Below are positions 1 to 13,145 of a stretch of 13,145 nt of DNA, one piece after another; position 1 is the first letter of the stretch, and every line of letters begins with the position of its first letter. The position numbers and the translations under genes were made by a program. This DNA is from Spirochaetales bacterium UBA1265 (lineage in GTDB: Bacteria > Spirochaetota > Spirochaetia > Sphaerochaetales > Sphaerochaetaceae): assembly GCA_002308475.1 (NCBI GenBank), contig DBVL01000132.1, forward strand, positions 1-13,145. Direction: 5' to 3'. Below the pieces are notes generated by a model, which made no database searches, was not told where the DNA came from, and saw only the letters and a program-made list of their open reading frames with translations.

Positions 1-382
1 CCTGCCAGTACTTGAACTCGTTTGTAGCACTGTTTCCCTGGTACTTGTCTTCAATCTTGATACCAAGCTTCTTCTCTACTTCAACCCAAGTCGGCTTGAG
101 GTCGCCTGTGTGGTAGGTAACGCCGCCAAGTGTGATTCCCTGACCTGCGGTATCTGCATCAAAGGAGAGACCTGTCTTCTTACTGTTGTAACCGGTTGCT
201 GTTCTGAGAACTGTTCCGGGAGCATAAGTAAGAGGCTCAACCTTCTTTTCTTCTACTACGGGAGCAGAAGCTGTTTCGGTAGTTGTTGATGACTGTACAG
301 GAACAGCATTCTTGGAACATCCAACGAATGCAGTTACAAGTGCTGCCAGTACAAGCAATGTAACCAATACTCTTTTCTTCAT
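1..382 (-). CDS. Sugar ABC transporter substrate-binding lipoprotein, N-terminal part (LplA-like)
   Basis: Only the first 127 residues are visible; the frame runs off the left edge without a stop. The protein opens MKKRVLVTLLVLAAL and reaches a lipobox ending FVGC, with the lipidated cysteine at residue 22. A Ser/Thr/Glu-rich linker (about residues 27-50) follows, typical of a lipoprotein tether, and then the mature fold begins. The ATG at 382-380 is preceded by a clear GGAGGA 5 bases upstream. It is the last gene of an operon with two permeases of the LplB and YtcP/LplC type, so by context it is the extracytoplasmic binding protein of that importer. Family members are usually 500 residues or more, so most of the gene lies outside. 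The lipoprotein and the context are clear; the substrate (an oligo- or polysaccharide fragment in related systems) is inferred and cannot be read here. Confidence 0.85.
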   Translation of the reverse strand, partial: MKKRVLVTLLVLAALVTAFVGCSKNAVPVQSSTTTETASAPVVEEKKVEPLTYAPGTVLRTATGYNSKKTGLSFDADTAGQGITLGGVTYHTGDLKPTWVEVEKKLGIKIEDKYQGNSATNEFKYWQ

Positions 383-395
383 TTTTTCCTCCATC

Positions 396-413
396 TGATT
401 CCCTTTTGAATCA
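396..413 (-). promoter_or_regulatory. Small hairpin before the binding-protein gene
   Basis: A 6-base perfect stem (TGATTC/GAATCA) with a 6-base loop lies in the 46-base gap between the second permease gene and the binding-protein gene, just before its ribosome site. Hairpins here often stabilise the downstream message or reduce upstream transcription, so that the binding protein is made in excess. There is no U-run after the stem, so it is not a normal terminator. A stem this short could be chance. Confidence 0.25.
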
Positions 414-428
414 ATATGTTAACGTTAA

Positions 429-1319
429 TTATTCCTTTACACCACCAACGTTTACACCCTTGGCAAAATACTTTTGGATGAACGGGTAAATGATAAGGAT
501 GGGGACAATAGAACAGACAATGAGAGCATAGACAACAGAGTCGGATGCATATGTTTCATTCCAACCTGCCATAGCCTCAGCGTCAGTATACTCCTCAAGC
601 TTAAGTCTGATGAAAACCATGAGCGGATGCTCGTTCTGGTTTGTAATCATCTGTCTTGCCCAGAAGTATCCGTTCCAACGTGAAATTGCAAAGAACAGTG
701 CAACAGTTGCAATTGTGGATTTGCTCATTGGTATGTAAACCTTTGACAAAACCTGGAACTCAGTTGCTCCGTCAACAATTGCAGCCTCTTCAATCTCAGA
801 AGGAACGTTTTCAAATGCGTTACGAAGCAGGATAACGTTCATGGCCGCCATACCCATGGCTATGATAACAAGCCACTTATCATCAGTAATACCTATTCCG
901 TTGAAGACCTTCTTGGTACTCAGGTAGTTGAGGTACTGAGGAACAATACCTGCAGAGAACCACATGGTGAAAACCAGGAAGAAGTTGAATGCCTTTCTGA
1001 AAAGAAGTCTTTTCTTTGAAAGTGCATATGCTCCGAGGATTGAGTATCCTACTGCGAAAAGTGTTCCGTAAAGTGTTATGAACAGTGTATTTGAATAGGA
1101 GTTCCAGAACATATTGTTTGTGAACATCCTCTTGAAGGCTTCAAACTGAATCTGTTTCGGGAAAAGGACAACCTGTGCATATTCGACTGCATGTCTACCG
1201 CTTATAGCAGCGGAAATGGCATAAACGAACGGGTAAAGGCACATGATTGAGAACATGGTAAGGAACAGATAGCTTATGATCTTGAAGATCAGTTCTGAAA
1301 TTTCAAGTTTTCTTTTCAT
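429..1319 (-). CDS. Carbohydrate ABC transporter permease, YtcP/LplC type
   Basis: This 296-residue polytopic inner-membrane protein has about six hydrophobic segments (roughly residues 12-38, 75-100, 111-130, 148-166, 202-220 and 262-282). The MetI-like permease signature, the EAA loop that docks on the ATPase, is visible as EEAAIVDGA at residues 177-185, followed by the usual YIPMSKS turn. Length and layout match the CUT1 subfamily permeases YtcP/LplC, which pair with an LplB permease. The ATG at 1319 has GAGAGGAG about 8-10 bases upstream, and the gene starts 15 bases after the LplB-like stop. With the other permease it should form the membrane channel of a sugar or glycan-fragment importer. 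No ATPase gene is present; such systems commonly borrow a shared MsmX/MsmK-type ATPase. The substrate is not readable from the sequence. Confidence 0.92.
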   Translation of the reverse strand: MKRKLEISELIFKIISYLFLTMFSIMCLYPFVYAISAAISGRHAVEYAQVVLFPKQIQFEAFKRMFTNNMFWNSYSNTLFITLYGTLFAVGYSILGAYALSKKRLLFRKAFNFFLVFTMWFSAGIVPQYLNYLSTKKVFNGIGITDDKWLVIIAMGMAAMNVILLRNAFENVPSEIEEAAIVDGATEFQVLSKVYIPMSKSTIATVALFFAISRWNGYFWARQMITNQNEHPLMVFIRLKLEEYTDAEAMAGWNETYASDSVVYALIVCSIVPILIIYPFIQKYFAKGVNVGGVKE

Positions 1320-1334
1320 ATCCTGACTCCTCTC

Positions 1335-2387
1335 TTAGTAAAGTGAAACGTTAGATGCCTTTCTGGCAATCGTGTTGGATCCTATAACGAGCAGCATACC
1401 AATGACGTTGTTCATCATTTCAGCGGCAGAAGCTATTCCCTTTGCAGAACCCTGAAGACCGTAACGCTGTGCGAAAGTTGATACAACATCAGCAGTTACA
1501 TAAGTATTTGCATTATAAAGAAGAAGGACTTTCTCGTATCCTATGCTGAGCAGAGAACCAATTCTGGTGATCAGCATGATAACAATTGTTGAAAGAATAC
1601 TTGGAAGAACCACGTACTTCATCTGAGCCATCTTTCCTGCTCCATCTATCTGAGCAGCCTCGTAGCTGGTCGGAGAAACGGCAATAATAGCTGCAAAATA
1701 GACAATAGAACCGTAACCGGCAGTCTCCCAAATACCGCTGAGCTCATAGATGGTTCTGAAATATGCGGGATTGTTGAGAAGACCAGCGTAAGCGGTTTCT
1801 TCTGAAATAATACCTATTTTGGCAAGAAGCTGAGAAAGGACACCATAACCTGTTGTAACAGAACCCTGCTTAACAAGCATGGCAACAAGAGATGTCATGA
1901 CAACAGTTGACATGAACTTAGGAAGGTATGTCAGAACCTGATAGATACTTCTTGCTGCGTTTGATCTGACTTCATTGAAGAACAGAGCAAGGACAATCGG
2001 GAACGGGAAGCCAAAACACAGTCCATAGAAACTAAGAATGAATGTGTTACGAAGGGCTCTCCAGAACTCTGTTGAAAGGGCATCTCCAGAAACGAGCAGA
2101 CGCTTGAAATATGAGAAACCCGAGAACAACTGCTCTGACACCGGAAGAATCTCATCGGACACCTTGAAACATCCGAGAAGTTCATACATGGGGAAATATC
2201 TCCAGAACAGGAAGACAAGCAACATAGGAACGAGCATGACATACAGTCTCCAGTCTTTTACAATTGTGAGACCGACATGCTTCCAATAATGCTTTTCCAC
2301 ATCATCCCTGACTATTTGTTCAGGGTCTTCTTTGTAGAGTTTCTTCTCTTCATCATAGATAAGGTAATCAGCTGCCTTAACTTTCAT
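1335..2387 (-). CDS. Carbohydrate ABC transporter permease, LplB type
   Basis: The product is a 350-residue membrane permease partnering the YtcP/LplC-type gene downstream. The EAA loop reads EAAQIDGAG at residues 243-251, followed by VVLPSI, as in LplB. About six membrane segments are visible (roughly 48-64, 113-138, 158-173, 225-238, 263-283 and 325-338). The first ~45 residues form a charged, acidic cytoplasmic extension before the first helix; LplB proteins often begin nearer that helix. The frame stays open upstream to 2468, but the ATG at 2387 is preferred: GGAGG stands 6-7 bases before it, and the extra upstream residues are non-membrane and coded inside the neighbouring gene. With this start it overlaps the upstream membrane-protein gene by 11 bases, which implies translational coupling. 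The family is clear; the substrate is unknown. Confidence 0.92.
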   Translation of the reverse strand: MKVKAADYLIYDEEKKLYKEDPEQIVRDDVEKHYWKHVGLTIVKDWRLYVMLVPMLLVFLFWRYFPMYELLGCFKVSDEILPVSEQLFSGFSYFKRLLVSGDALSTEFWRALRNTFILSFYGLCFGFPFPIVLALFFNEVRSNAARSIYQVLTYLPKFMSTVVMTSLVAMLVKQGSVTTGYGVLSQLLAKIGIISEETAYAGLLNNPAYFRTIYELSGIWETAGYGSIVYFAAIIAVSPTSYEAAQIDGAGKMAQMKYVVLPSILSTIVIMLITRIGSLLSIGYEKVLLLYNANTYVTADVVSTFAQRYGLQGSAKGIASAAEMMNNVIGMLLVIGSNTIARKASNVSLY

Positions 2388-2958
2388 TACGCTCCTCCTC
2401 TTCTTCCCTGTTGATTCTGAACAGGTAGGCCTTCTGATCTTCAAAAACACCATCAAGCCGCCTGACAATCCAAACGATTACTAAAGCAAATACGCCGGAC
2501 AGTGAATCTGTCAAAACGAATTTCAGTACTATCCCAATCGGGTTGCCCAGAAAGAAAGCCACCAGGCCACGACCAATCTGCATAAGCAGTGTCACAAAAA
2601 CGGAATAAAGAAGAGACCAAAAAACCTTTGACCTTATCTTTTCCTTACCCACATACAGAAGAACCAGAAGTGACACCCCGGAAAGCAGATTACCTACTAC
2701 ATAAATCTCGTACTGTGCAGCATCCGCACCGGATGCAATGCAAAATACCAGACCCCCGAGTGCAGCATGGATGACTCCCCATACTCCCCATCTCATGTAA
2801 ACAACACATGTTATGGCCGGCACTATTGACAGTGAGTAAGGCTGTGAAGAAAAGCGGGGAGCTGCTTTGACTACAATTGTTTCAAAAACAATCATAATCA
2901 CTGCCAATACGAACAAATCATTTGCTCTGTATTGTTTAAAGCTCATCTTTTTTCCCAT
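2377..2958 (-). CDS. Six-helix integral membrane protein, first gene of the sugar ABC operon
   Basis: This 193-residue protein has six likely membrane helices (about 12-31, 41-55, 58-76, 83-102, 113-137 and 143-165) and a highly charged C-terminal tail (166-193) with a run of five glutamates. I do not recognise a named family with certainty. Size, helix count and the glycine-rich second and third helices resemble ECF-transporter S components, and I recall similar proteins upstream of LplB-type permeases in Clostridia and spirochaetes, but that is memory, not a search. It overlaps the LplB-type gene by 11 bases, so it is probably made in step with the permeases. Two starts are possible: the ATG at 2958 (AAGG 6 bases upstream) and a second at 2946, four codons in (GGGA upstream). 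Roles as an accessory importer subunit, an S component or a sensor are all inference. Confidence 0.8.
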   Translation of the reverse strand: MGKKMSFKQYRANDLFVLAVIMIVFETIVVKAAPRFSSQPYSLSIVPAITCVVYMRWGVWGVIHAALGGLVFCIASGADAAQYEIYVVGNLLSGVSLLVLLYVGKEKIRSKVFWSLLYSVFVTLLMQIGRGLVAFFLGNPIGIVLKFVLTDSLSGVFALVIVWIVRRLDGVFEDQKAYLFRINREEEEERNES

Positions 2959-3086
2959 ACCATACCTTGTGACGGAATTCCCAGAATCCGCCTAGTTTCA
3001 AATCCTAAACCATGAAAAAATCACCTGCAAGAAAAAGTTTAAAGATGTCGGCAAATTATTAAGCCACTACGGAAAAAGACAATTTT

Positions 3087-3104
3087 GCACTTTTAGGCAC
3101 TTTT
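3087..3104 (+). repeat. Direct repeat GCACTTTT, spaced 10 bases
   Basis: GCACTTTT occurs at 3087-3094 and again at 3097-3104, one helical turn apart and about 40-55 bases before the proposed start of the hydroxylase transcript. Tandem sites on the same face of the helix just upstream of a promoter are what an activator would use. The repeat is short and lies in AT-rich DNA, so chance is a real alternative. Confidence 0.3.
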
Positions 3105-3129
3105 TAATGTAGTTTCAGCCCTTTTTATA

Positions 3130-3135
3130 TATAAT
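3130..3135 (+). promoter_or_regulatory. -10 box (TATAAT) of the hydroxylase gene, probably leaderless
   Basis: A perfect TATAAT ends 7 bases before the ATG at 3143, so transcription would begin at or within a base or two of the start codon. There is no Shine-Dalgarno sequence in front of the ATG; the 25 bases before it are almost only A and T. No good -35 box is seen at the expected spacing (around 3107-3112), which fits an activator-dependent promoter. Confidence 0.5.
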
Positions 3136-3142
3136 ATATTGT

Positions 3143-6142
3143 ATGGCTATTTTTACGGTTAACAACAAAAAACAAGAAGTCCTTGAAGAAAAAAGACTCA
3201 TCAACTACCTGAGATATAACCTACACCTGACATCTGTCAAAGACGGCTGCTCAGAGGGTGCTTGCGGATCCTGCACCATCCTGATTGACGGAGTTCCAAC
3301 CAAAGCCTGTACGCTTCTCACAACAGAGGTGGACGGGAAGAACATTCTCACAGTTGAAGGTCTGACAGAGAGGGAAAAGGATATTTACACCTTTGCCTTC
3401 GGAGAGGCCGGAGCAGTTCAGTGCGGGTACTGCACCCCAGGCATGATCATGTGTGCCAAGGGACTGCTCGACAAAAACCCCTCCCCTACCGAGAAAGAGA
3501 TAAGGCATGCTATAAGAAACAACCTCTGCAGGTGCACCGGATATGTGAAAATAGTTAAGGCAATCCAGATGGCCGCTTCCCTTTTCAGAAATGAAGGATC
3601 AATTCTGGAAAATTTTTATGATGACAGGAAGTGGATTGTTGGAGAAAGAGTTCATAGACTGGATGTTAAAGACAAGGTCACAGGAAAAGGAAAGTATCCT
3701 GATGACATTTATATGGAAAACCAGCTGAATGTTGTTGCCGTTAGATCAAAACACCCAAGAGCAAAGATTCTTTCCATAGACACAGAGCTTGCTAAGGCTG
3801 TGCCCGGGGTTGCAGCCGTCCTCACTGCAGAAGATGTTCCCGGAGACAAAAAGGTTGGACACATAAACAAGGACTGGGACGCCCTCATAGCAGTAGGAGA
3901 AATAACCAGATACCGTGGAGATGTGATAGCTTTGGTTGTTGCAGAGACAAGAAGCGTGGCAATCAAGGCAAGAGACCTGGTGAAGGTTGAATATGAGGTC
4001 CTTCCCTTCGTCAGGAATCCGGAAGAAGCCATGAAAGAAGGCGCTCCACTGGTTCATGAGGAAGGAAACCTTCTTGGAGAAACCCACCTTGACAGAGGAG
4101 ATGTGGAAAAAGCCCTCTCAGAATCTGATTTTGTAGTTTCAGGGCACTTCGAGACTCCTTGGACAGAACACGCCTTCATAGAAACCGAATGTGCATTTGC
4201 TATTCCACTTGAGAACGGGGGAGTAAGAATATACTCAACAGACCAGAGCGTTTATGACACAAGGCGTGAGACAGCACCTTTCCTTGGTCTGGATGAGGAG
4301 ATGGTTGTAGTTGAGAACTGCTACGTAGGCGGAGGCTTTGGAGGAAAGGAAGACGTAACTGTTCAGCATTTGAGTGCCCTGGCAGCCATGATCACAAAAC
4401 GGCCTTGTAAGATGAAGCTTTCAAGACAGGAAAGCCTGGAAGTTCATCCAAAGAGACACCCAATGAGCATTGATATGACCATGGGGTGCACAAAAGAAGG
4501 AATAATAACAGCTCTTAAAGCAAATCTTGTAACAGACACCGGCGCCTATGCTTCTTTGGGTCTTCCAGTTCTGCAGAGAGCCTGTACCCATGCCTCAGGG
4601 CCATACAACTATCAGAACTTCAAAGTTGACGGCTATGCCTGGTACACAAACAACCCACCGGCAGGAGCCTTCAGAGGCTTTGGCGTAACCCAGAGCTGTT
4701 TTGCAGTAGAGACACTGCTCAACCGACTGGCTGACAAGGTCGGAATTTCCGGCTGGGAGATAAGGTACAAAAATGCCATCAGAGCCGGTCAGGAACTTCC
4801 TAACGGACAGATTGCAGACTCATATACCGGGCTTGCTGAAACACTTGAAGCAGTTAAAGACGAATATTTCTCAAACGAGCTTGTAGGAATAGCCTGCGCC
4901 ATGAAAAATGCAGGTGTAGGCGTAGGACTTCCGGACTATGGAAGAGTTGATCTGGAAGTCAGAAACTCAAAGGTCATAATCCACTGCGCAGGCTCATGCC
5001 TGGGGCAGGGACTGTGCACTGTACTCAAGCAGATGGTCTGTACAGCATCAGGACTTGACGGGAAGTACATAGAGGAAGAGAAGGCAAGAACAGATCTGGC
5101 GCCGGACAGTGGAACAAGTTCCGGCTCAAGGCACACAACTGTTACTGGAGAGGCTGCCCGCAGAGCCGGGTTGAAGCTTAGAGAAGCTTTGGAAGGCAAA
5201 ACGCTTTCAGACCTGGAAGGAGAACACTTCTACGCAGAGTATCTGGCAGAGACAGACGAGTTCGGATCAAAGAAGAAGCATCCGAAGAGCCATGTAGCCT
5301 ACGGATTTGCCACCCAGCTGTGTGTTCTGGATACAAAGACACACAAAGTAGAGAGAATTGTTGCTGCGCATAATGTAGGAAGAGCTATCAATCCAACTAA
5401 TATTGAAGGTCAGATAGAAGGCGGAGTGGTCATGGGCCTGGGGTTTGCCTTGCGTGAGAACTTTGAGGTCAAGAACTGCGTGGTTAAGAGCAAGTTTGGA
5501 AGTCTGGGCCTTTTCAGGGCAGATGAGCTACCGGACATAAAGGCAGTCATAGTTGAGAAAGAAGGCCTGGATACGTCTTTTGGTGGAATAGGGATTGGAG
5601 AGATAACCTGCATCCCTACTGCTCCGGCAGTTGCCTCAGCCTACGAGCATCTGGACAAAGAGGAGAGAAACTCTCTGCCCATTATCCATACCCCATATCA
5701 GAATCAGGCTTCAGAAGGAAAAATCAAAGACAGACGTGTCCTTGTTGCAGACAACAGCAAGAGATGTATAGGATGCAAGGAATGCATGAGAGCCTGCTCC
5801 ACCACATATTTCAAAAGCGAACAGTCAGCTCTCTCATTCATTCAGGTAAGAGAGAGAAAGGGGATTGGAAACGAAAGCGGTATTTCAGGTATAATAGTCC
5901 GGCCGGTCACCTGCATGCAGTGCGGTGCCTGTGCTAAAGTTTGTCCTAAGGGGGCAATCAGCAAGAACCGCTTTGGCGTGTATGTTGTCGACCTTAAGCT
6001 GTGCGACGGCTGTGGTCAGTGTGCAATAGCCTGTCCACTAGATCTCATAGTGGTGAGAGGTCAGACAGCACTTAAGTGCATAAGCTGCGGCAAATGTGCT
6101 AAAGCTTGCCCCATGGATGTTTTGCGGATAGAAAATGGATGA
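3143..6142 (+). CDS. Molybdenum hydroxylase (xanthine dehydrogenase family), 2Fe-2S/Moco/polyferredoxin fusion
   Basis: A single 999-residue chain holds three modules. Residues 1-150 are the small [2Fe-2S] subunit, with C36, C41, C44 and C56 in the plant-ferredoxin fold and C94, C97, C129 and C131 in the helical fold. Residues about 165-860 are the molybdopterin domain, with GGGFGGKE at 396-403, GAFRGFG around R511 and the catalytic glutamate in GIGE (E820). Residues 870-999 carry four CxxCxxCxxxC sets (starting at C875, C924, C954 and C979), room for four [4Fe-4S] clusters as in HycB/CooF-like electron carriers. The FAD subunit of classical xanthine dehydrogenase is absent. The Moco part resembles, from memory, the selenium-dependent xanthine dehydrogenase family (TIGR03311); such enzymes hydroxylate purines. 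The N-terminus aligns with the family from the first residue, which supports the ATG at 3143. Electrons probably leave through the C-terminal clusters to an unknown carrier. The exact substrate is inferred. Confidence 0.9.
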   Translation: MAIFTVNNKKQEVLEEKRLINYLRYNLHLTSVKDGCSEGACGSCTILIDGVPTKACTLLTTEVDGKNILTVEGLTEREKDIYTFAFGEAGAVQCGYCTPGMIMCAKGLLDKNPSPTEKEIRHAIRNNLCRCTGYVKIVKAIQMAASLFRNEGSILENFYDDRKWIVGERVHRLDVKDKVTGKGKYPDDIYMENQLNVVAVRSKHPRAKILSIDTELAKAVPGVAAVLTAEDVPGDKKVGHINKDWDALIAVGEITRYRGDVIALVVAETRSVAIKARDLVKVEYEVLPFVRNPEEAMKEGAPLVHEEGNLLGETHLDRGDVEKALSESDFVVSGHFETPWTEHAFIETECAFAIPLENGGVRIYSTDQSVYDTRRETAPFLGLDEEMVVVENCYVGGGFGGKEDVTVQHLSALAAMITKRPCKMKLSRQESLEVHPKRHPMSIDMTMGCTKEGIITALKANLVTDTGAYASLGLPVLQRACTHASGPYNYQNFKVDGYAWYTNNPPAGAFRGFGVTQSCFAVETLLNRLADKVGISGWEIRYKNAIRAGQELPNGQIADSYTGLAETLEAVKDEYFSNELVGIACAMKNAGVGVGLPDYGRVDLEVRNSKVIIHCAGSCLGQGLCTVLKQMVCTASGLDGKYIEEEKARTDLAPDSGTSSGSRHTTVTGEAARRAGLKLREALEGKTLSDLEGEHFYAEYLAETDEFGSKKKHPKSHVAYGFATQLCVLDTKTHKVERIVAAHNVGRAINPTNIEGQIEGGVVMGLGFALRENFEVKNCVVKSKFGSLGLFRADELPDIKAVIVEKEGLDTSFGGIGIGEITCIPTAPAVASAYEHLDKEERNSLPIIHTPYQNQASEGKIKDRRVLVADNSKRCIGCKECMRACSTTYFKSEQSALSFIQVRERKGIGNESGISGIIVRPVTCMQCGACAKVCPKGAISKNRFGVYVVDLKLCDGCGQCAIACPLDLIVVRGQTALKCISCGKCAKACPMDVLRIENG

Positions 6143-7205
6143 TTTACTGAACAAACTTCCTGGCTTCAGAAGCCAGCTGGAAGAAACAGACAGAAAACTC
6201 TCGGACCCGGAAATTATGAAAAACATGGAAGCCTACCGCTCCCTCATGTTGGAGCGTAGCCATGTGGTTCCGGTTGTTGAAGAGCTGGAAAAGCTTGAAT
6301 CCCTTATTACACGTATATCTGAAAATGAGGAAATGCTCAAAGAAGGTGGTGAGTTGGCTGAAATGGCCAAAGAGGAACTGGGTCTTTTGAAGACTCAGGA
6401 AGAGGATTGCAGGAAAAAATGCAAGATGCTTCTTGTCCCGCCGGATCCACTGGAGGGAAAAGACATAATTATGGAAATAAGGGCCGGAACAGGTGGAGAT
6501 GAGGCAGCTCTTTTTGCTGCAGACCTGTACCGCATGTATATGTACTACGCCGAGACCATGAGGTGGAAGGTCCGGGAGATAAGCTCAAATGAAACCGGAC
6601 TTGGTGGTTACAAGGAAATAATTCTCTCTATCAGCGGTAAGGATGTTTACGGCTCCCTGAGATGGGAAAGCGGAGTTCACCGCGTCCAGAGAGTTCCAGA
6701 GACAGAATCAGGTGGAAGAATACACACCTCTGCGGTGACGGTTGCTGTTCTGCCGGAGCCAGAGCAGACAGATGTGGTCATAAGACAGGAAGACCTCAGA
6801 ATAGATGTCATGCGCGCCGGAGGTCCGGGTGGACAGTGTGTCAACACTACGGAAAGCGCGGTAAGAATCATTCACCTTCCCACGGGTCTTACCGTCATTT
6901 GTCAGAACCAGAAGTCCCAGCTTCAGAACAGAGAAGAAGCCATGAGAGTCCTGCGTTCCAGACTTTTTGATATGGAAACCGAAAAGAAGAACCGCGAGAG
7001 AGCTGAGGAGAGAAAAAGCCAGGTCGGAAGCGGAGACAGAAGTGAGAGAATCAGAACATATAACTTCCCTCAGAACCGTCTGACTGACCATAGAATAAAC
7101 CTCACACTCTACAATCTGGATCTTGTCATGGAAGGCCACCTTGAGCAGGTGATTGAGGCCCTCAAGATCAGCGCAGGAGAAGCAGCTCTCAAAGAGGCAA
7201 AATAA
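6135..7205 (+). CDS. prfA: Peptide chain release factor 1
   Basis: RF1 recognises UAA and UAG stop codons in the ribosomal A site and triggers peptide release. The 356-residue length is normal. The stop-reading tripeptide PxT is PET at 188-190, in the context RVPETESGGRIHTS, which marks RF1 and not RF2. The catalytic GGQ is at 232-234, followed by VNTTES. The N-terminal 100 residues form the usual charged helical domain. The residue after GGQ is cysteine, where E. coli RF1 has histidine. The start overlaps the end of the hydroxylase gene by 8 bases with only a weak GGA-type site before it, so translation is probably coupled to that gene. The next gene, prmC, encodes the enzyme that methylates the GGQ glutamine, a common and functional pairing. 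Confidence 0.96.
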   Translation: MDDLLNKLPGFRSQLEETDRKLSDPEIMKNMEAYRSLMLERSHVVPVVEELEKLESLITRISENEEMLKEGGELAEMAKEELGLLKTQEEDCRKKCKMLLVPPDPLEGKDIIMEIRAGTGGDEAALFAADLYRMYMYYAETMRWKVREISSNETGLGGYKEIILSISGKDVYGSLRWESGVHRVQRVPETESGGRIHTSAVTVAVLPEPEQTDVVIRQEDLRIDVMRAGGPGGQCVNTTESAVRIIHLPTGLTVICQNQKSQLQNREEAMRVLRSRLFDMETEKKNRERAEERKSQVGSGDRSERIRTYNFPQNRLTDHRINLTLYNLDLVMEGHLEQVIEALKISAGEAALKEAK

Positions 7206-7208
7206 GAG

Positions 7209-8087
7209 ATGACAGTTGGTGAGAAGTACAGGCTCTGCACAAAAGCACTAGAAGGACACACAGACTCCCCTGCTCTGGATGTGTCTCTTTTCTTTGAAGA
7301 TATCTGCTCTTTGACCAGAACTGATCTTATACTCCACGGCTCAGATCAACTCACTGATGAACAGGAGAAGAGGATAGATGAATGTGTGTCTTCTCGCCTT
7401 AGCGGGGTCCCTGTTGCTTATATTCTCGGACACAAGGGCTTCTATAAGTCAGATTTCCATACACCTTTAAATGTCCTCATTCCTCAGCCAGATACGGAAA
7501 TTCTGGTGGAGAACACTGTCTCTGTATCTTCCTTTTTTTTCCATGAAGAGAAACTGAGCATACTGGATCTCTGCGCTGGTACAGGGTGTGTGGGAATAAG
7601 CGTGGCTTTGGAGATAAGTGAACGTCTTCCTATGGACCTCTATCTTTCAGATATAAGTCAGGACGCCTTCAACGCCTTTTCCAAAAATGCCACTACCCTT
7701 CTTCCTCCATCTGTCAGAACTCATTTTGTTCTTTCAGATCTCTTTGAAGGAGTAAAAGGAAAGAGGTTTCAGATAATAGCATCAAATCCGCCATACATAC
7801 GCAGCTCAGTGATAGAGACCCTAAGTGCAGAGGTCAAGGCAGAGCCTTACCTGGCTCTGGATGGAGGAGAAGACGGGCTATTTCTGATAAAAAAGATTAT
7901 TTCTGAAGCTCCTGCCTTCCTTGTTCCAGGAGGATTTCTGCTGCTGGAGATAGGCTATGATCAGGGCCCGGAAGTAAAAAGACTGTTTGAAGAAGGCCCA
8001 TTTACGGATGTAGAAATCAAAAAGGACCTTGGAGGCCGGGACAGAGTTGTTCTGGGGCGCTATTCACGTTGCCAAAATGGCCTATAA
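7209..8087 (+). CDS. prmC: Release factor glutamine N5-methyltransferase
   Basis: PrmC (HemK) uses S-adenosylmethionine to methylate the glutamine of the release-factor GGQ motif. The 292 residues show an N-terminal helical domain (1-75), the IPxPDTE segment at 91-97 (Q at the position that is usually R), SAM-binding motif I around LDLCAGTGCVG (119-129), and the NPPY motif at 193-196 that holds the target amide. The C-terminal GGFLLLEIGYDQG segment is also typical. It begins 3 bases after the prfA stop with a weak AGAGG site, so the two are surely one transcript. A run of eight T residues (7533-7540) codes for FFF before motif I. No key motif is missing. Confidence 0.95.
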   Translation: MTVGEKYRLCTKALEGHTDSPALDVSLFFEDICSLTRTDLILHGSDQLTDEQEKRIDECVSSRLSGVPVAYILGHKGFYKSDFHTPLNVLIPQPDTEILVENTVSVSSFFFHEEKLSILDLCAGTGCVGISVALEISERLPMDLYLSDISQDAFNAFSKNATTLLPPSVRTHFVLSDLFEGVKGKRFQIIASNPPYIRSSVIETLSAEVKAEPYLALDGGEDGLFLIKKIISEAPAFLVPGGFLLLEIGYDQGPEVKRLFEEGPFTDVEIKKDLGGRDRVVLGRYSRCQNGL

Positions 8088-8092
8088 AATTG

Positions 8093-8098
8093 TATAAC
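8093..8098 (+). promoter_or_regulatory. -10-like box (TATAAC) before rel, possibly leaderless start
   Basis: TATAAC ends 8 bases before the rel ATG at 8107, and no Shine-Dalgarno sequence is present in the 19 bases between prmC and rel. A second AT-rich match, TATAAAAT, lies at 8083-8090 over the prmC stop. As with the hydroxylase gene, a transcript from the first box would begin at or beside the start codon. No clear -35 box was found. Confidence 0.35.
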
Positions 8099-8106
8099 CT
8101 TATTCT

Positions 8107-10146
8107 ATGTACGAAGAGTTAGTAAACAGATTTCTTTCAAAGACCGAGAAATACTCACCCGAAGACAGGGAAAAGATAAGCAGAGCCGCCTGGTATGCAA
8201 ATGAGAAGCATATAGACCAGAAAAGAAAGAGCGGTGAACCTTACATAATCCACCCCTTGGCTGTTGGAGAGATTCTCGTGCAGAAGTTCAACATGGACGC
8301 AGACACAGTCTGTGCCGGTCTTCTGCATGATGTGATAGAAGACACTGATTCAACAGAAGAAGAAGTGACAGAGCTCTTTGGAAAGAATGTTTGTGAACTT
8401 GTACAGGGTGTAACAAAGATAAAGGCAATCAAGAACCTCTCAAGAAGCCTGGCTGAAGCCGAGACCATCAGAAAGATGTTCATAGCCATGAGTAAGAACA
8501 TGCCGGTCATAATCATAAAGCTCTCAGACAAACTTCATAACATGAGAACCCTTCAGTACATGGACCCTGCCAGAGCTAGGGAAAAGGCAAACGAATGTCT
8601 GGACATCTATGCTCCATTGGCTGACAGGCTCGGTATCTTCTGGATGAAGGCTGAACTTGAAGATCTGTGCCTGAAAGCTTTAAAACCAGACACATATGAG
8701 TATATTACGAAGTACCTCAAGGAAAAGAAAGCTGAGAGCATTCAGTATCTGGACACTGTAAGAAAGAAGATATCAAACGCCTGTATAAACGCAGGGATAA
8801 AGGGAATAACAATCAAGACCAGGCAGAAGCACGTCTACTCCGTCTACATGAAGATGAAGAAGAGAAGAAAGGAAATAGATGAGATTTTTGACCTTCTCGG
8901 AGTAAGAGTCATCTGCAACAGTGTAACAGAGTGCTACACTCTGATAGGAATAATCCACCAGCTGTGGCCACCCATGGAAGGCCGCTTCAAGGATTATATT
9001 GCCATGCCTAAGGCAAACAACTACCAGAGCCTGCACACCACAATCATGGCCATGAACGGCGTGGTTCTTGAAGTTCAGATAAGAACCTATGAGATGGACC
9101 AGATAGCTGAGTACGGTGTGGCATCTCACTGGGCATACAAGGCTCAGAGCGGAAGCGGGGAAGCTTCTCAGGACTGGTCAAACATGGACAGTCAGCAGCT
9201 TTCGAGGATAGCTACAAAACTCAAGTCTTGGAATAATGAGATTGAGCAGAGTGAATCCTTCATGGAAGACCTCAAGGATGAACTTCTGAAAGACACCATC
9301 TACGTGTTCACACCAAAAGGTCAGGCCATTGAGCTTCCCATAGGGGCTACAGCCTTGGATTTTGCATATCTTATTCATACGGAGATAGGAAACCACACGG
9401 TAAGTGCCAAGGCAAACGGAGCAATCATTCCTCTAGGACAGAGTCTTGAGAACACCCAGGTGATTGAGATAATCACCCAGAAAAACGCACATCCGCGTGT
9501 CACATGGCTTAAGTACGCACACACAACCAGTGCAAGAAGAAAAATACGTAACTGGCTGAACAAGTATGATGACAATCTTGTGATTGAGAAGAATATCATT
9601 GCCCGTAAGAAGGAGATTGAAGAGGCAGTCAAGAACGAGCCTGTTCAGGAACCTGAGCTTAAGGACAGTGATATAGTCCGCTCAATCTCTGATATCTCCA
9701 GGAGCTCCGTAACGGTCGGTTCCTCAAAGAACATGATGATCCAGATAGCCCAATGCTGCAATCCGGTTCCAGGAGACAAGATTGTAGGCTATGTTTCAAG
9801 AGGACGAGGAATAATTGTTCATAAGGAAGACTGTCCGAACCTTGAGCACATGACTGAGATCAACCAGAGAAAGATCAGTGTTGAGTGGGAGTCTGATTCT
9901 GAGACCATCACAAGACGTTTTGTTGTCACAAGCAAGAGGACACAGAACCTCTTCAGTGAGATAGAAGGAGCCATAAGAAGTTTCAAAGGCCACCTCATTT
10001 CCGGCAGTCTGATTGATGATGAGATGGGGAACCTCCAGGGCACCTTCATGCTTGAGTGTGACAAAGAGGAATCTTATAAGAAAATAGTTAAGGCAATCCG
10101 TGGAATTCCTAGTATAATCAAGATAGCACAGGCACCGATGTCTTAA
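8107..10146 (+). CDS. rel: Bifunctional (p)ppGpp synthetase/hydrolase, Rel/SpoT family
   Basis: This enzyme makes and degrades the stringent-response alarmone (p)ppGpp. The 679 residues carry the full long-RSH layout. The HD hydrolase domain (about 25-160) has H49, H74-D75 with E78-D79, and D141, so hydrolysis should be active. The synthetase domain (about 220-345) has D262 and E322, with RFKD at 293-296; that basic form is found in bifunctional enzymes, whereas RelA-type synthetases carry ExDD. Then come TGS (about 396-457), a helical linker, the conserved-cysteine region with C550-C551 and C576, and a C-terminal ACT domain (about 603-675). It lies 19 bases after prmC and 20 before rpiB. The start lacks a ribosome-binding site but fits the family N-terminus. 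Both activities are predicted from intact residues, not proven. Confidence 0.95.
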   Translation: MYEELVNRFLSKTEKYSPEDREKISRAAWYANEKHIDQKRKSGEPYIIHPLAVGEILVQKFNMDADTVCAGLLHDVIEDTDSTEEEVTELFGKNVCELVQGVTKIKAIKNLSRSLAEAETIRKMFIAMSKNMPVIIIKLSDKLHNMRTLQYMDPARAREKANECLDIYAPLADRLGIFWMKAELEDLCLKALKPDTYEYITKYLKEKKAESIQYLDTVRKKISNACINAGIKGITIKTRQKHVYSVYMKMKKRRKEIDEIFDLLGVRVICNSVTECYTLIGIIHQLWPPMEGRFKDYIAMPKANNYQSLHTTIMAMNGVVLEVQIRTYEMDQIAEYGVASHWAYKAQSGSGEASQDWSNMDSQQLSRIATKLKSWNNEIEQSESFMEDLKDELLKDTIYVFTPKGQAIELPIGATALDFAYLIHTEIGNHTVSAKANGAIIPLGQSLENTQVIEIITQKNAHPRVTWLKYAHTTSARRKIRNWLNKYDDNLVIEKNIIARKKEIEEAVKNEPVQEPELKDSDIVRSISDISRSSVTVGSSKNMMIQIAQCCNPVPGDKIVGYVSRGRGIIVHKEDCPNLEHMTEINQRKISVEWESDSETITRRFVVTSKRTQNLFSEIEGAIRSFKGHLISGSLIDDEMGNLQGTFMLECDKEESYKKIVKAIRGIPSIIKIAQAPMS

Positions 10147-10166
10147 GCCTGTATTACGGAGGAATA

Positions 10167-10628
10167 ATGTCTGACAAACTGAGAATAGTCATGGCAAATG
10201 ACCATGGAGCAACAGAGCTTTCAAGAGATCTGAAGGATTACCTTGAGTCCAAGGGCCATGAGGTTGTATGGCTTGGAACACAGACAAATGACAGCATTGA
10301 TTATCCAGATCAGGCAGAACTGGCCTGTAGGGAGTTTCTGAAAGGTTCATATGACTTTGGAATTCTCTGCTGCGGAACCGGAATAGGTATCTCCATCTCT
10401 GCTAACAAGATTCATGGCATAAGATGCGCCCTTCCCCAGAACTGCTATGCAGCGAGGATGGCAAAAGAGCATAACAATGCCAACTTCATAGCCTTTGGTG
10501 GAAGAATAGACTATCCAGAGTCTCCTCAGTCCATGGTTCAGACTTTCATAGATTCAACTGTCTCTCCTGACAGCAGACACAGAAACAGAGAAGCCAAGAT
10601 GATGGCTCTTGAGAAGGCAGAGTTCTGA
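10167..10628 (+). CDS. rpiB: Ribose-5-phosphate isomerase B (RpiB/LacAB family)
   Basis: RpiB interconverts ribose 5-phosphate and ribulose 5-phosphate in the pentose phosphate pathway; some relatives act on allose 6-phosphate or galactose 6-phosphate. The 153-residue length is typical. Visible features are the N-terminal NDHGA (residues 11-15, where the usual form is SDHAG), the catalytic cysteine in CCGTGIGISISANK (C69), and the EHN motif around H102. The ATG has a strong GGAGG at 10158-10162, four bases upstream, in contrast to rel before it. The gene is the last of the rightward block and stops 2 bases from the convergent gene, with no terminator hairpin between. The changed first motif leaves the exact sugar phosphate slightly open, but RpiB is the best call. 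Confidence 0.9.
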   Translation: MSDKLRIVMANDHGATELSRDLKDYLESKGHEVVWLGTQTNDSIDYPDQAELACREFLKGSYDFGILCCGTGIGISISANKIHGIRCALPQNCYAARMAKEHNNANFIAFGGRIDYPESPQSMVQTFIDSTVSPDSRHRNREAKMMALEKAEF

Positions 10629-10630
10629 AC

Positions 10631-11167
10631 TTATCTCAAATCTCTCCAGCTACCTTTTATGTAGTGGTCATAGATTGTGAGGCTGAAAAACACGGAAAAC
10701 CTGTTCTCTTTGAAATTCCATGCCACACCTATAGGCAGAAATGACTGTCTGGAGCCGGTGTGTGGGGTTCCCATTGTTATGGGAGTTATTCTAAGTGTCA
10801 TATATGTTGGAGAGAATTCTCCATTATGATTTGAAGCAAAGAAGCCCAAGCTAATTATGGTATTCATGTAGAAGCCTGCGTTTTTATCCGCATTTACCCT
10901 GTTTCCCAGAATGCTGTAGCCTATCTCAGTTCCCACCGCCACTTCTGAAAAAGGTGAAGGTGTTATCTCTGTTATAGCTTCCACATTTATCTCAAGACGC
11001 TCAGTAAGCCCAAATGTCACTCCTCCGAGAACGCTTAAACCATAGTCCCCATCATGGGCAACAAAACTTCCATGCCCTATTCTCAGTCCTATATCTCCAA
11101 GAAAAGTGGATGCGCAAAGAGGAAAGACAAACAAAAACAGCAAACAAATAAGAAAAGTCTTTTTCAT
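10631..11167 (-). CDS. Exported small beta-rich protein, probable outer-membrane barrel (second of a pair)
   Basis: The 178-residue product has a clear signal peptide (MKKTFLICLLFLFVFPLCA, cleavage near residue 19) followed by alternating polar and aromatic residues with many glycines, the pattern of outer-membrane beta-strands. It ends with an FSVFFSLTIYD-type strand and a short polar tail. I do not recognise a named family. The start is taken at the ATG at 11167, with GAGAGG 5 bases upstream; a GTG two codons earlier sits too close to that site. It follows the gene ending at 11177 by 9 bases and is the last gene of the leftward operon headed by cytidine deaminase and a PLD-type lipoprotein. 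The barrel topology is inferred from residue pattern only. Confidence 0.75.
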   Translation of the reverse strand: MKKTFLICLLFLFVFPLCASTFLGDIGLRIGHGSFVAHDGDYGLSVLGGVTFGLTERLEINVEAITEITPSPFSEVAVGTEIGYSILGNRVNADKNAGFYMNTIISLGFFASNHNGEFSPTYMTLRITPITMGTPHTGSRQSFLPIGVAWNFKENRFSVFFSLTIYDHYIKGSWRDLR

Positions 11168-11176
11168 GCACACCTC

Positions 11177-11671
11177 TCAAAACAAAGCTGTCATACGCAG
11201 GAAGCTGACGCTCCACTCTCTTATGCCGGATTCAAAGGTGGCAGAAAGAACAAACCACTCATACATGTAGTCCTTATCAAGGACTCTGAACAGAGAAATC
11301 TCTCCATACGGATAAATGCATGAGTTCTCCACACTTATGCCTCCACCTATGCTCGGGCTCCAAGGTCCTGGGTTAGACATGGTGAAGGAAAGCGGATTCC
11401 ACATACTCTTGAACAGTTCAAGATTTGCAGTGGCCTTCAGACCTGACCACCTTAGTCCTTCCTCAGAGATGCAAAGACCGCTCTGAACCCTGGCATACGG
11501 ATTCAGATAGGTCAGGGAAAATGGCTTGAAAACAAAACTCAGTTCTGCGCTTGTTTCTGCCTCAGATGTTCCTGTAAATGAAAATCCCGCACCAACAGAG
11601 AACCGCTCCAGTGCAAAAATAGGAGCGAGAATCAGAAAACATAGAATAAAGACAAACAGGACTTTCTTCAT
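11177..11671 (-). CDS. Exported small beta-rich protein of unknown function (first of a pair)
   Basis: The 164-residue product begins with a strong signal peptide (cleavage after about residue 20, at ...APIFA). The mature part is rich in short alternating strands, Gly, Ser, Tyr and Phe, and ends in ALF, a hydrophobic C-terminus with the final Phe seen in many outer-membrane proteins. No named family was recognised. The ATG at 11671 has GAGGAG 6 bases upstream. It starts 9 bases after the PLD-type lipoprotein gene and is followed after 9 bases by another exported beta-rich protein. The two share size, export signal and a similar penultimate strand, but I cannot claim common descent by eye. A periplasmic or outer-membrane role linked to the lipoprotein is inferred from context. 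Confidence 0.75.
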   Translation of the reverse strand: MKKVLFVFILCFLILAPIFALERFSVGAGFSFTGTSEAETSAELSFVFKPFSLTYLNPYARVQSGLCISEEGLRWSGLKATANLELFKSMWNPLSFTMSNPGPWSPSIGGGISVENSCIYPYGEISLFRVLDKDYMYEWFVLSATFESGIREWSVSFLRMTALF

Positions 11672-11680
11672 ACAGACTCC

Positions 11681-12961
11681 TCAACCTGCCATCATAGCTA
11701 TGATAAAGCTTAACAGACCGCTAAAGGTCCTCCACTGCTCTGCAAGATCTTCTGTCAGAACTATGGTATCCTCCGCAAGAGTCATGAAACGTGAACGCAC
11801 AAGAGAAGCAAACTCAGGACTGTCTATGACCAGTGCTATCTCATTTGAAAGAACCATACTGCGGTAGTTGAGGTTCACAGAGCCTATGACAGTGTACTGC
11901 CCGTCCACCACAATGAGTTTCTCATGGAGAAGATTCTCTGTGTTGTACAGAGCCTTCTCACTAAAAACCGTTATTCCTGCACTCTGAAGGTCCTTTACGC
12001 TGTAGTGCGCTGCTTTGAAGTTCAGAGTTCTTGGGTCATTTGGAAGAATTATTTTAAACTCCACTCCACGCTCAGTTGCATTCTTTATGGACTGTGCCAT
12101 GTCTGAGTTAAGAAGAGGAAGAAGTGGCAGACATAGAATCTCGGACTTTGCACTTGAGAAAAGAGAGCCAAACAGAGCAGGCATGATTACCTTATCATCA
12201 CTCTGGTTAACAACCCAGGCATCCAGATAGCCATCCTCGGGATAAGAGACGTCCACCGCTTTCGGAAGAGAAGCTATCTCTTCCCAGCTGTAGGTATTCC
12301 AGTTTTCCATAAACTGCTCTGAGAGAATTCGGGCCACCTCAGGAGATTCAAATATATACATGGAGTCTCTCTGCCCCTTGTCCTTTGAACTTATATCTGA
12401 CATGAAGTTGAAGTTCATTCCACCGGTCATGACTGTATGTCCGTCAATTATGACCTGCTTTCTATGCTCTCTGATAAACAGCTTTGCACCTGAAACAAGT
12501 CGGTTGAGTGAAAACGGGTTGTACTTGTAAAGATGCACGCCCTCCTCTCTGAGGTACTCAATGCTTCTCATGTGGTACTTGCTTTCCGTCATATCCATGT
12601 CTCCGGCACTGTCAAAGAGAAAGTATATCTCCACTCCTTCACGTGCCTTTTCAGCAAGAGCCTGGAAGAAAGCCTTATTCTCATCACACTCAGAGACAAG
12701 GAAAGAAGATATGAAAATATAGCTCTTAGCCTTTTTCACATACTCAGTAGCAGCTTCTATCCACTCATCTCCCTCATAGAAAACCTGTATATCCCTAAGT
12801 CTTGCAGAGGGAAAGCCAAGGGCATTCAGCTTATAGGGAAGATCTGTGGAAGTATCAGTAACCAGAGGATCCTTTGTCATTACAGAAGTGGAGGAACAAG
12901 AGACAAGACCAGCACAGAGGGCAAGAACAGTAACGAGATAAAGCAGTCTATTTTTAATCAT
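11681..12961 (-). CDS. PLD-superfamily lipoprotein (cardiolipin synthase/phospholipase D-like, two HKD motifs)
   Basis: The 426-residue product has a lipoprotein signal ending LVSC (lipidated C22), a short linker, and two phospholipase D catalytic motifs HxKxxxxD: H166-K168-D173 followed by GGMN, and H346-K348-D353 followed by GSVN. Two intact motifs form one active site, so the enzyme should be active on phosphodiesters, as in phospholipases, cardiolipin synthases or related nucleases. Anchoring outside the cytoplasm by a lipid is unlike classical cardiolipin synthase, which has N-terminal membrane helices. The start ATG overlaps the cytidine deaminase stop (ATGA) with no Shine-Dalgarno site, so translation is coupled. 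Two exported beta-rich proteins follow at 9-base intervals. The substrate is unknown; envelope phospholipid is the natural guess from location. Confidence 0.88.
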   Translation of the reverse strand: MIKNRLLYLVTVLALCAGLVSCSSTSVMTKDPLVTDTSTDLPYKLNALGFPSARLRDIQVFYEGDEWIEAATEYVKKAKSYIFISSFLVSECDENKAFFQALAEKAREGVEIYFLFDSAGDMDMTESKYHMRSIEYLREEGVHLYKYNPFSLNRLVSGAKLFIREHRKQVIIDGHTVMTGGMNFNFMSDISSKDKGQRDSMYIFESPEVARILSEQFMENWNTYSWEEIASLPKAVDVSYPEDGYLDAWVVNQSDDKVIMPALFGSLFSSAKSEILCLPLLPLLNSDMAQSIKNATERGVEFKIILPNDPRTLNFKAAHYSVKDLQSAGITVFSEKALYNTENLLHEKLIVVDGQYTVIGSVNLNYRSMVLSNEIALVIDSPEFASLVRSRFMTLAEDTIVLTEDLAEQWRTFSGLLSFIIAMMAG

Positions 12962-13145
12962 AGTTGAAAAGCCAGTGGCAAGAGCTCTCCAAAGCTGTAA
13001 TGAAGCCTCTTACCGCTCTTGATTGAGAAAATATAAACCTGTGTATCAATCTTAGAGAACTCATTCAGTACCTGACGGCAGATAGCACACGGAGGAGCAG
13101 GCTCATCCACTTCTGAAGCCACAGCAAAGGCTTTTATCTCAACTT
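12958..13145 (-). CDS. cdd: Cytidine deaminase, C-terminal part
   Basis: A frame entering from the right edge gives the last 61 residues of a protein with PPCAICRQVLNEF, the second zinc-binding motif of cytidine deaminase (two zinc-ligand cysteines, C19 and C22 of the visible part), and the usual FGELLPLAF ending. The first zinc motif (H/C-A-E) lies outside the window. The enzyme deaminates cytidine and deoxycytidine to uridine and deoxyuridine in pyrimidine salvage. Its TGA overlaps the ATG of the PLD-type lipoprotein by the ATGA arrangement. It is the short, tetrameric type judging by the distance from PCxxC to the end. Confidence 0.9.
   Translation of the reverse strand, partial: VEIKAFAVASEVDEPAPPCAICRQVLNEFSKIDTQVYIFSIKSGKRLHYSFGELLPLAFQL

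Follow-up and report, generated by a model that had tools for sequence, protein, structure and literature searches.

A FAD-less molybdenum hydroxylase with a fused four-cluster ferredoxin tail in Sphaerochaetaceae

With which partner does a xanthine dehydrogenase-like enzyme exchange electrons when it has no flavin adenine dinucleotide (FAD) domain and ends in a ferredoxin? The question is raised by a DNA stretch of 13,145 nucleotides from Spirochaetales bacterium UBA1265 (family Sphaerochaetaceae; GenBank assembly GCA_002308475.1, contig DBVL01000132.1, positions 1 to 13,145), here called the window. One open reading frame (ORF) of its forward strand, at positions 3143-6142, encodes from an ATG start a molybdenum hydroxylase of 999 amino acids. 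It is fairly probable that this protein is a FAD-less single-chain purine hydroxylase to which a tail was fused once, and that its electrons go to ferredoxin or another low-potential partner and not to nicotinamide adenine dinucleotide (NAD(H)). The gene is made up as follows.

3143..6142, + strand: TIGR03311 core fused to a four-cluster ferredoxin domain (ORF; TIGR03311 match at residues 4-853)
3143..3577, + strand: N-terminal part with two [2Fe-2S] clusters, residues 1-145 (Fer2_2, 98 bits; cysteines invariant in 52/52)
3635..5701, + strand: molybdopterin part, residues 165-853 (MoCoBD_1, 252 bits; MoCoBD_2, 118 bits; Ald_Xan_dh_C, 94 bits)
5702..5764, + strand: linker to the first cluster motif (alignment of 52 tailed proteins)
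5765..5797, + strand: cluster motif 1, CIGCKECMRAC, residues 875-885 (motif reading and alignment, as for the next three)
5912..5944, + strand: cluster motif 2, CMQCGACAKVC, residues 924-934
6002..6034, + strand: cluster motif 3, CDGCGQCAIAC, residues 954-964
6077..6109, + strand: cluster motif 4, CISCGKCAKAC, residues 979-989

Pfam recognizes Fer2/Fer2_2 (residues 5-142), Ald_Xan_dh_C, i.e., the hammerhead domain (180-288), MoCoBD_1 (306-545), MoCoBD_2 (581-797) and Fer4-type domains (874-992), and no FAD_binding_5 domain anywhere in the 999 residues. The two [2Fe-2S] sites of the family are matched by Cys 36, 41, 44 and 56 and by Cys 94, 97, 129 and 131. The tail holds four CxxCxxCxxxC motifs, that is 16 cysteines, in about 125 residues, against a mean of 0.0035 motifs per protein in 2000 shuffles of the same residues. 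ORF, domains and motifs together bear out what the first-pass annotation, made by a model from the sequence, had described: a single-chain molybdenum hydroxylase with two [2Fe-2S] clusters, a molybdenum domain, 16 C-terminal cysteines in four sets and no FAD domain.

The fusion is conserved well beyond the window. All 8 + 16 cluster cysteines are invariant in the 52 aligned sequences, and Cys875 is separated from residue 852 by 21-24 residues. The four motifs are complete in 123 of the 124 proteins fetched in the protein searches (the window's own included; the exception, P0114, has two), so the fusion is not an assembly accident. Fer4 domains are present on 119 of the 120 matches listed in the protein search (again with the window's own) out of 7993, which makes the count of tailed proteins a lower bound. 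In three close pairs the ratio of nonsynonymous to synonymous substitution rates (dN/dS) is 0.04-0.06 for the core and 0.05-0.08 for the tail, dS of the tail being saturated in the two pairs with L014. For the complete protein, AlphaFold gives a model with a mean predicted local distance difference test (pLDDT) of 88 and a predicted template modelling score of 0.90, with values of 74-94 for ten-residue blocks of the tail. The matches in the fold comparison of this model cover residues 1-855, that is the core and not the tail; the tail folded alone without an alignment reached a pLDDT of 36 and gave no usable model.

The first-pass annotation had pointed to TIGR03311 and TIGR03313 as the families to compare, and the NCBIfam search separates them clearly. 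The protein matches TIGR03311 (selenium-dependent xanthine dehydrogenase) with 1213.5 bits for a cut-off of 830.45, along the whole model (3-847/848; protein residues 4-853). It remains far under the cut-off of TIGR03313 (XdhD type; 256.2 vs 1101.9 bits) and under that of NF045668 (molybdopterin aldehyde oxidoreductase; 475.6 vs 1100 bits). In an alignment with rat xanthine oxidoreductase, E403, R479 and F513 are the Glu of GGFGGKE, the Arg of ERALFH and the Phe of FRGFG, and E820 is matched to the Glu of GVGEL in the Desulfovibrio gigas aldehyde oxidoreductase (AOR). In the bovine enzyme these four residues correspond to E802, R880, F914 and E1261, the last being catalytic. All four, together with Q622, are invariant in the 52 aligned sequences. 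Since the E403 position is occupied by Phe in the D. gigas AOR and by Leu in a nicotinate dehydrogenase, the substrate pocket of the window protein looks purine-like.

It should be stressed that the FAD-less selenium-dependent xanthine dehydrogenase is a known kind of enzyme and that what is new is the variant with a fused four-cluster tail. The core of the window protein is that of TIGR03311, with molybdenum and [2Fe-2S] parts in one chain, but the model ends at 848 amino acids and the tail falls beyond it. Classical XdhABC enzymes have a FAD domain or a dedicated FAD subunit, whereas the window protein has neither, as judged from Pfam and a genome search. The D. gigas AOR (MOP; 1sij) has no such tail. 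E. coli XdhD-YgfM, which lies in a purine cluster, also has a fused [2Fe-2S]/molybdenum chain but, unlike the window protein, has a FAD partner and belongs to TIGR03313. Enterococcus faecalis EF2570 and Clostridioides difficile xdhA5 are presumable members of this class named in print (PMC11448449 for xdhA5). According to that paper, xdhA5 combines molybdenum and Fe-S parts in one gene, and FAD genes occur at three of the five C. difficile loci, namely xdhA1, xdhA2 and xdhA4 only. Among open-licence papers, we found neither a characterised enzyme with such a tail nor a mention of TIGR03311 by name.

The first-pass annotation had also called the tail a HycB/CooF-like four-cluster module, and its four motifs in about 125 residues and its sequence matches to HycB-type proteins along most of its length agree with this. 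HycB/CooF-type chains (7z0s_B, 7qv7_A/B, 9mqx_E) match most of the tail with E values of 2.8e-8 to 4e-5, and polyferredoxins (9sw6_G, 9sfi_O) give a stronger but partial match (E 3.5e-23). These are separate proteins or subunits, whereas the module of the window is fused to a molybdenum hydroxylase. Free-standing relatives of the tail, of about 125-130 amino acids, also exist. Among the 120 matches listed out of 4001, six with Clostridia names are 42-47% identical to it and one, P0238, is named CO dehydrogenase iron sulfur subunit. With P0238 as the query, Sphaerochaetaceae (family label f1, whose member records L013 and L014 bear this name) give 27 matches at E <= 1e-12, in 26 of the 139 genomes and under seven genus labels; every one of them is a tail. 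The phylum of Clostridia (that of G495, the genome of L026) yields a match at E <= 1e-25 in one genome of 398: a four-cluster ferredoxin 69% identical to P0238 (L176 10575-10994, genome G742). This free-standing ferredoxin family, whose members bear Clostridia names, has no obvious partner gene at L176.

The hydroxylase itself is more widespread than its tail. In Spirochaetota, 73 of 392 genomes match at E <= 1e-100, but the alignment extends into the tail only for G000 (the source genome), G318 and G326; some of the other matches stop at contig ends. In the window's family, 126 of 139 genomes have a hydroxylase match; G412, 63% identical and cut by a contig end, may be a further tailed genome. 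In none of these 139 genomes was the tailed form seen together with a tail-less one of this branch. In the phylum containing Clostridia, 82 of 368 genomes match at E <= 1e-100 (34 matches at E below 1e-250), and no CxxCxxCxxxC motif was seen at the 30 Clostridia loci fetched (any frame, gene and flanks up to 1.5 kb). Apart from its first residue, a protein of 125 amino acids named Eubacteriales bacterium (P0142) is identical to the end of P0075, one of the tailed proteins. This weakens a strict limit to spirochaetes, and a tailed or split form may exist outside them.

Two trees of the core, with the tail left out, place the tailed sequences together (38 of 75 sequences, support 100, and 38 of 94, support 99), each with a single tail change. 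The second is the first plus 20 Clostridia sequences and minus the long-branched L098. Both are quick trees without bootstrap, midpoint-rooted for drawing. The single change would agree with a gain as well as with a loss; because tail-less sequences span two phyla, it is best read as one gain. The tailed sequences group with tail-less ones of families f29 and f3 and with two Clostridia sequences, apart from the tail-less enzymes of their own family; the hydroxylase gene therefore probably moved between lineages. One tailed relative (L142 7803-11135; 1110 residues) has about 100 extra residues, apparently inside the molybdenum-domain region, its match to the query (genome G483) being split in three. 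Furthermore, the metagenome-assembled genome (MAG) RUI345 holds two copies of the hydroxylase-prfA-prmC-rel region (L013 and L014), whose hydroxylases are 84% and 79% identical to that of the window; co-binning of two species is a likelier cause than paralogy.

Taken as a mechanism, these data would suggest the following. A four-[4Fe-4S] ferredoxin domain would have been joined to the C-terminus of the hydroxylase, most likely in a single event, in a lineage whose present members are seen in one family of spirochaetes. The substrates would be purines at the hypoxanthine, xanthine or urate level. With all clusters filled, electrons would pass between the molybdenum centre, the two [2Fe-2S] clusters and the four [4Fe-4S] clusters of the tail, which would face a soluble ferredoxin or another partner of low potential in place of NAD(H). 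On this view the hydroxylase would have worked with an iron-sulfur partner before the fusion, and the tail would have been added to it as a relay or for docking. In C. difficile, reduced ferredoxin has been proposed as the partner of XdhD because a FAD subunit is missing, and XdhD is reported to reduce urate (PMC12507026, a 2025 paper on reductive urate degradation). The low-potential outlet suggested by the first-pass annotation is plausible and better grounded than from sequence alone. The low-potential iron-sulfur route is the likely one; a specific tie to a hydrogenase, also suggested there, could not be demonstrated, [FeFe]-hydrogenase-type domains being present in 139/139 family genomes with the tail or without.

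Several observations weigh against this reading. Those hydrogenase-type domains, like YgfK (133/139 family genomes), occur irrespective of the tail; both are near universal in the family, and co-occurrence with the tail, tried as an indicator of the partner, offers no contrast. The best sequence matches of the tail in the structure database are polyferredoxins, HycB-type chains scoring lower. No hydroxylase gene lies within about 9 kb of the L176 ferredoxin, which leaves the pairing of hydroxylase and ferredoxin without gene-neighbour support. The pocket is not identical to that of rat xanthine oxidoreductase, which has Gln at the place of T341, and residues 395-403, near the molybdenum site, are modelled at a pLDDT below 50. 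In the stretches fetched, no urate cluster surrounds 28 of the 37 tail-less loci of spirochaetes or any of the four loci from the window's genus. Lastly, five of the 26 tailed genomes gave no selD match, among them G411, which is 93% complete; this slightly lowers confidence.

In the other tailed genomes (21/26) selD is matched at E <= 0.001, and 117 of the 139 family genomes have it over the cut-off. The source genome, where the first-pass annotation had proposed to look for it, does encode selD (TIGR00476, 361.7 bits; G000:C41:8577-9500). At 4 kb from it lies a gene for a YqeB/XdhC-like protein (L143:3555-4376) with NF045664 and TIGR02964 matches under the cut-offs; TIGR03309 (YqeB) is not listed for it, no genome-wide TIGR03309 search having been made. 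selD and accessory genes have been tied to the selenium-dependent class of molybdenum hydroxylases (PMC2276186), and we infer selenium at the molybdenum of the window enzyme.

Among the alternatives, the one that survives best concerns direction. Reduced ferredoxin could feed the tail and the molybdenum site could mainly reduce urate to xanthine or 2,8-dioxopurine, as a means of electron disposal; this is a possibility of some weight, if a somewhat doubtful one. Many relatives of the core do lie in a reductive urate cluster (YgfK/SsnA/HyuA/YgeW-X-Y genes), which surrounds 9 of the 37 tail-less loci in spirochaetes and 19 of the 20 in Clostridia, and the source genome has YgfK and SsnA. The clostridial XdhD proposal described above points the same way. 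However, a separate TIGR03313-like chain beside a FAD subunit (L010) in the source genome could do the urate job, and for some tailed forms the adjoining uptake genes suggest that purine nucleosides are the input.

Another alternative is that a FAD or NAD(P)H protein acts in trans, either YgfK or one of the three FAD subunits of the source genome, the tail being a docking surface only. YgfK, a flavin and Fe-S protein, is encoded in nearly all family genomes and near many tail-less members, but its presence is not tied to the tail. The source genome (G000) is a MAG, 79% complete, in 139 contigs, with four MoCoBD_1 and three FAD_binding_5 genes. The FAD genes lie on contigs C3, C14 and C90, each adjoining one of the three other hydroxylases, and none is on C120, the contig of the window. 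On C3 lie YgfK, SsnA and an XdhA-type gene accompanied by [2Fe-2S] and FAD genes. C14 carries, beside its FAD gene, a TIGR03313-like (XdhD-type) chain that is truncated at the contig end and scores 974 bits for a cut-off of 1101.9. In a genome of the same genus (G480, 96% complete) there are likewise three FAD genes, together with one tailed enzyme. The search of the genome for a FAD subunit, proposed by the first-pass annotation, thus found three and none dedicated to the tailed enzyme; since all three adjoin other molybdenum subunits, a partner in trans is unlikely.

The same annotation saw the tail as standing in for the FAD subunit. Classical xanthine dehydrogenases do have such a subunit and the window protein does not, but no dedicated FAD gene was seen with the tail-less relatives either. 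Among the tail-less loci, FAD genes were seen near one of 37 in spirochaetes (L085) and near five of 20 in Clostridia (L208, L211, L212, L216, L224), each time beside another molybdenum subunit; near the 25 tailed loci there was none. The queries of these look-ups were single E. coli sequences, with the genome's own FAD subunits added for the Clostridia set, and a very divergent FAD gene could escape them. Nor do genomes with the tail have fewer FAD_binding_5 domains: the median is 3 in both groups, with a range of 2-4 among the 26 tailed genomes and of 1-9 among the 113 others of the family. The tail as a FAD substitute is therefore not supported, and it is quite improbable that it replaced a lost FAD subunit. 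As for an assembly chimera or a decayed, unused tail, the incompleteness and fragmentation of the source MAG would allow it, but the recurrence of the fusion in 26/139 family genomes and 123/124 proteins, the 16/16 invariant cysteines and the low dN/dS of the tail in three pairs rule it out for practical purposes.

If electrons do pass to ferredoxin, purine breakdown in these spirochaetes would draw on the low-potential pool (H2, pyruvate oxidation) and not on NAD(H). The tailed fusion is also independent genomic support for the ferredoxin proposed for the FAD-less clostridial relative (PMC12507026). A wider generalization, tentative and somewhat less likely than not, is that all FAD-less selenium-dependent xanthine dehydrogenases use ferredoxin, the spirochaete fusion being a frozen enzyme-plus-ferredoxin pair with six clusters per chain; purine oxidation or urate reduction in anaerobic bacteria would then be tied directly to the ferredoxin/H2 economy. 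The fusion hints at how a little-studied group of enzymes hands on electrons, and a single gene offers a test object for the electron partner of the FAD-less family in anaerobic purine and urate breakdown.

Concerning the neighbourhood, one further feature adjoins the hydroxylase gene.

6135..7205, + strand: prfA-like gene (ORF), whose start overlaps the hydroxylase stop by 8 bases and which is not part of the enzyme

This gene, presumably prfA as judged from its translation, has a counterpart directly downstream in 11 of the 25 tailed loci. Directly upstream, 7 of the 25 have genes of a PnrA-type ATP-binding cassette (ABC) transporter, with a 4-base overlap in 6; the transporter was named by Pfam in L132 and some of these contigs end nearby. 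The window locus has the prfA side only and no PnrA-type side.

Immediately upstream of the hydroxylase gene, at 3130-3142 of the window, lies a TATAAT stretch whose end is 7 bases away from the ATG, and a clear ribosome site is missing; the arrangement is similar in L012 and L013 and not in L014, and a leaderless message is possible. A promoter scan gave no + strand site upstream of the gene and did not flag this stretch, and no RNA family was found in the window at the gathering threshold. About 8 kb downstream on the same contig, beyond the window, L059 carries an amidohydrolase gene (14023-15393; HyuA similarity of 263 bits, Amidohydro_1), kept in L012 and L013, whose product could be a ring-opening enzyme. 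A protein of the cytidine/deoxycytidylate-deaminase type (PF00383; L083 11489-12118), the same cluster of which is found near the hydroxylase in 12 tail-less loci, would fit a guanine deaminase feeding xanthine. Finally, the window holds a PLD-like gene (PLDc_2; 11681-12961) with a relative in L012, L013 and L014.

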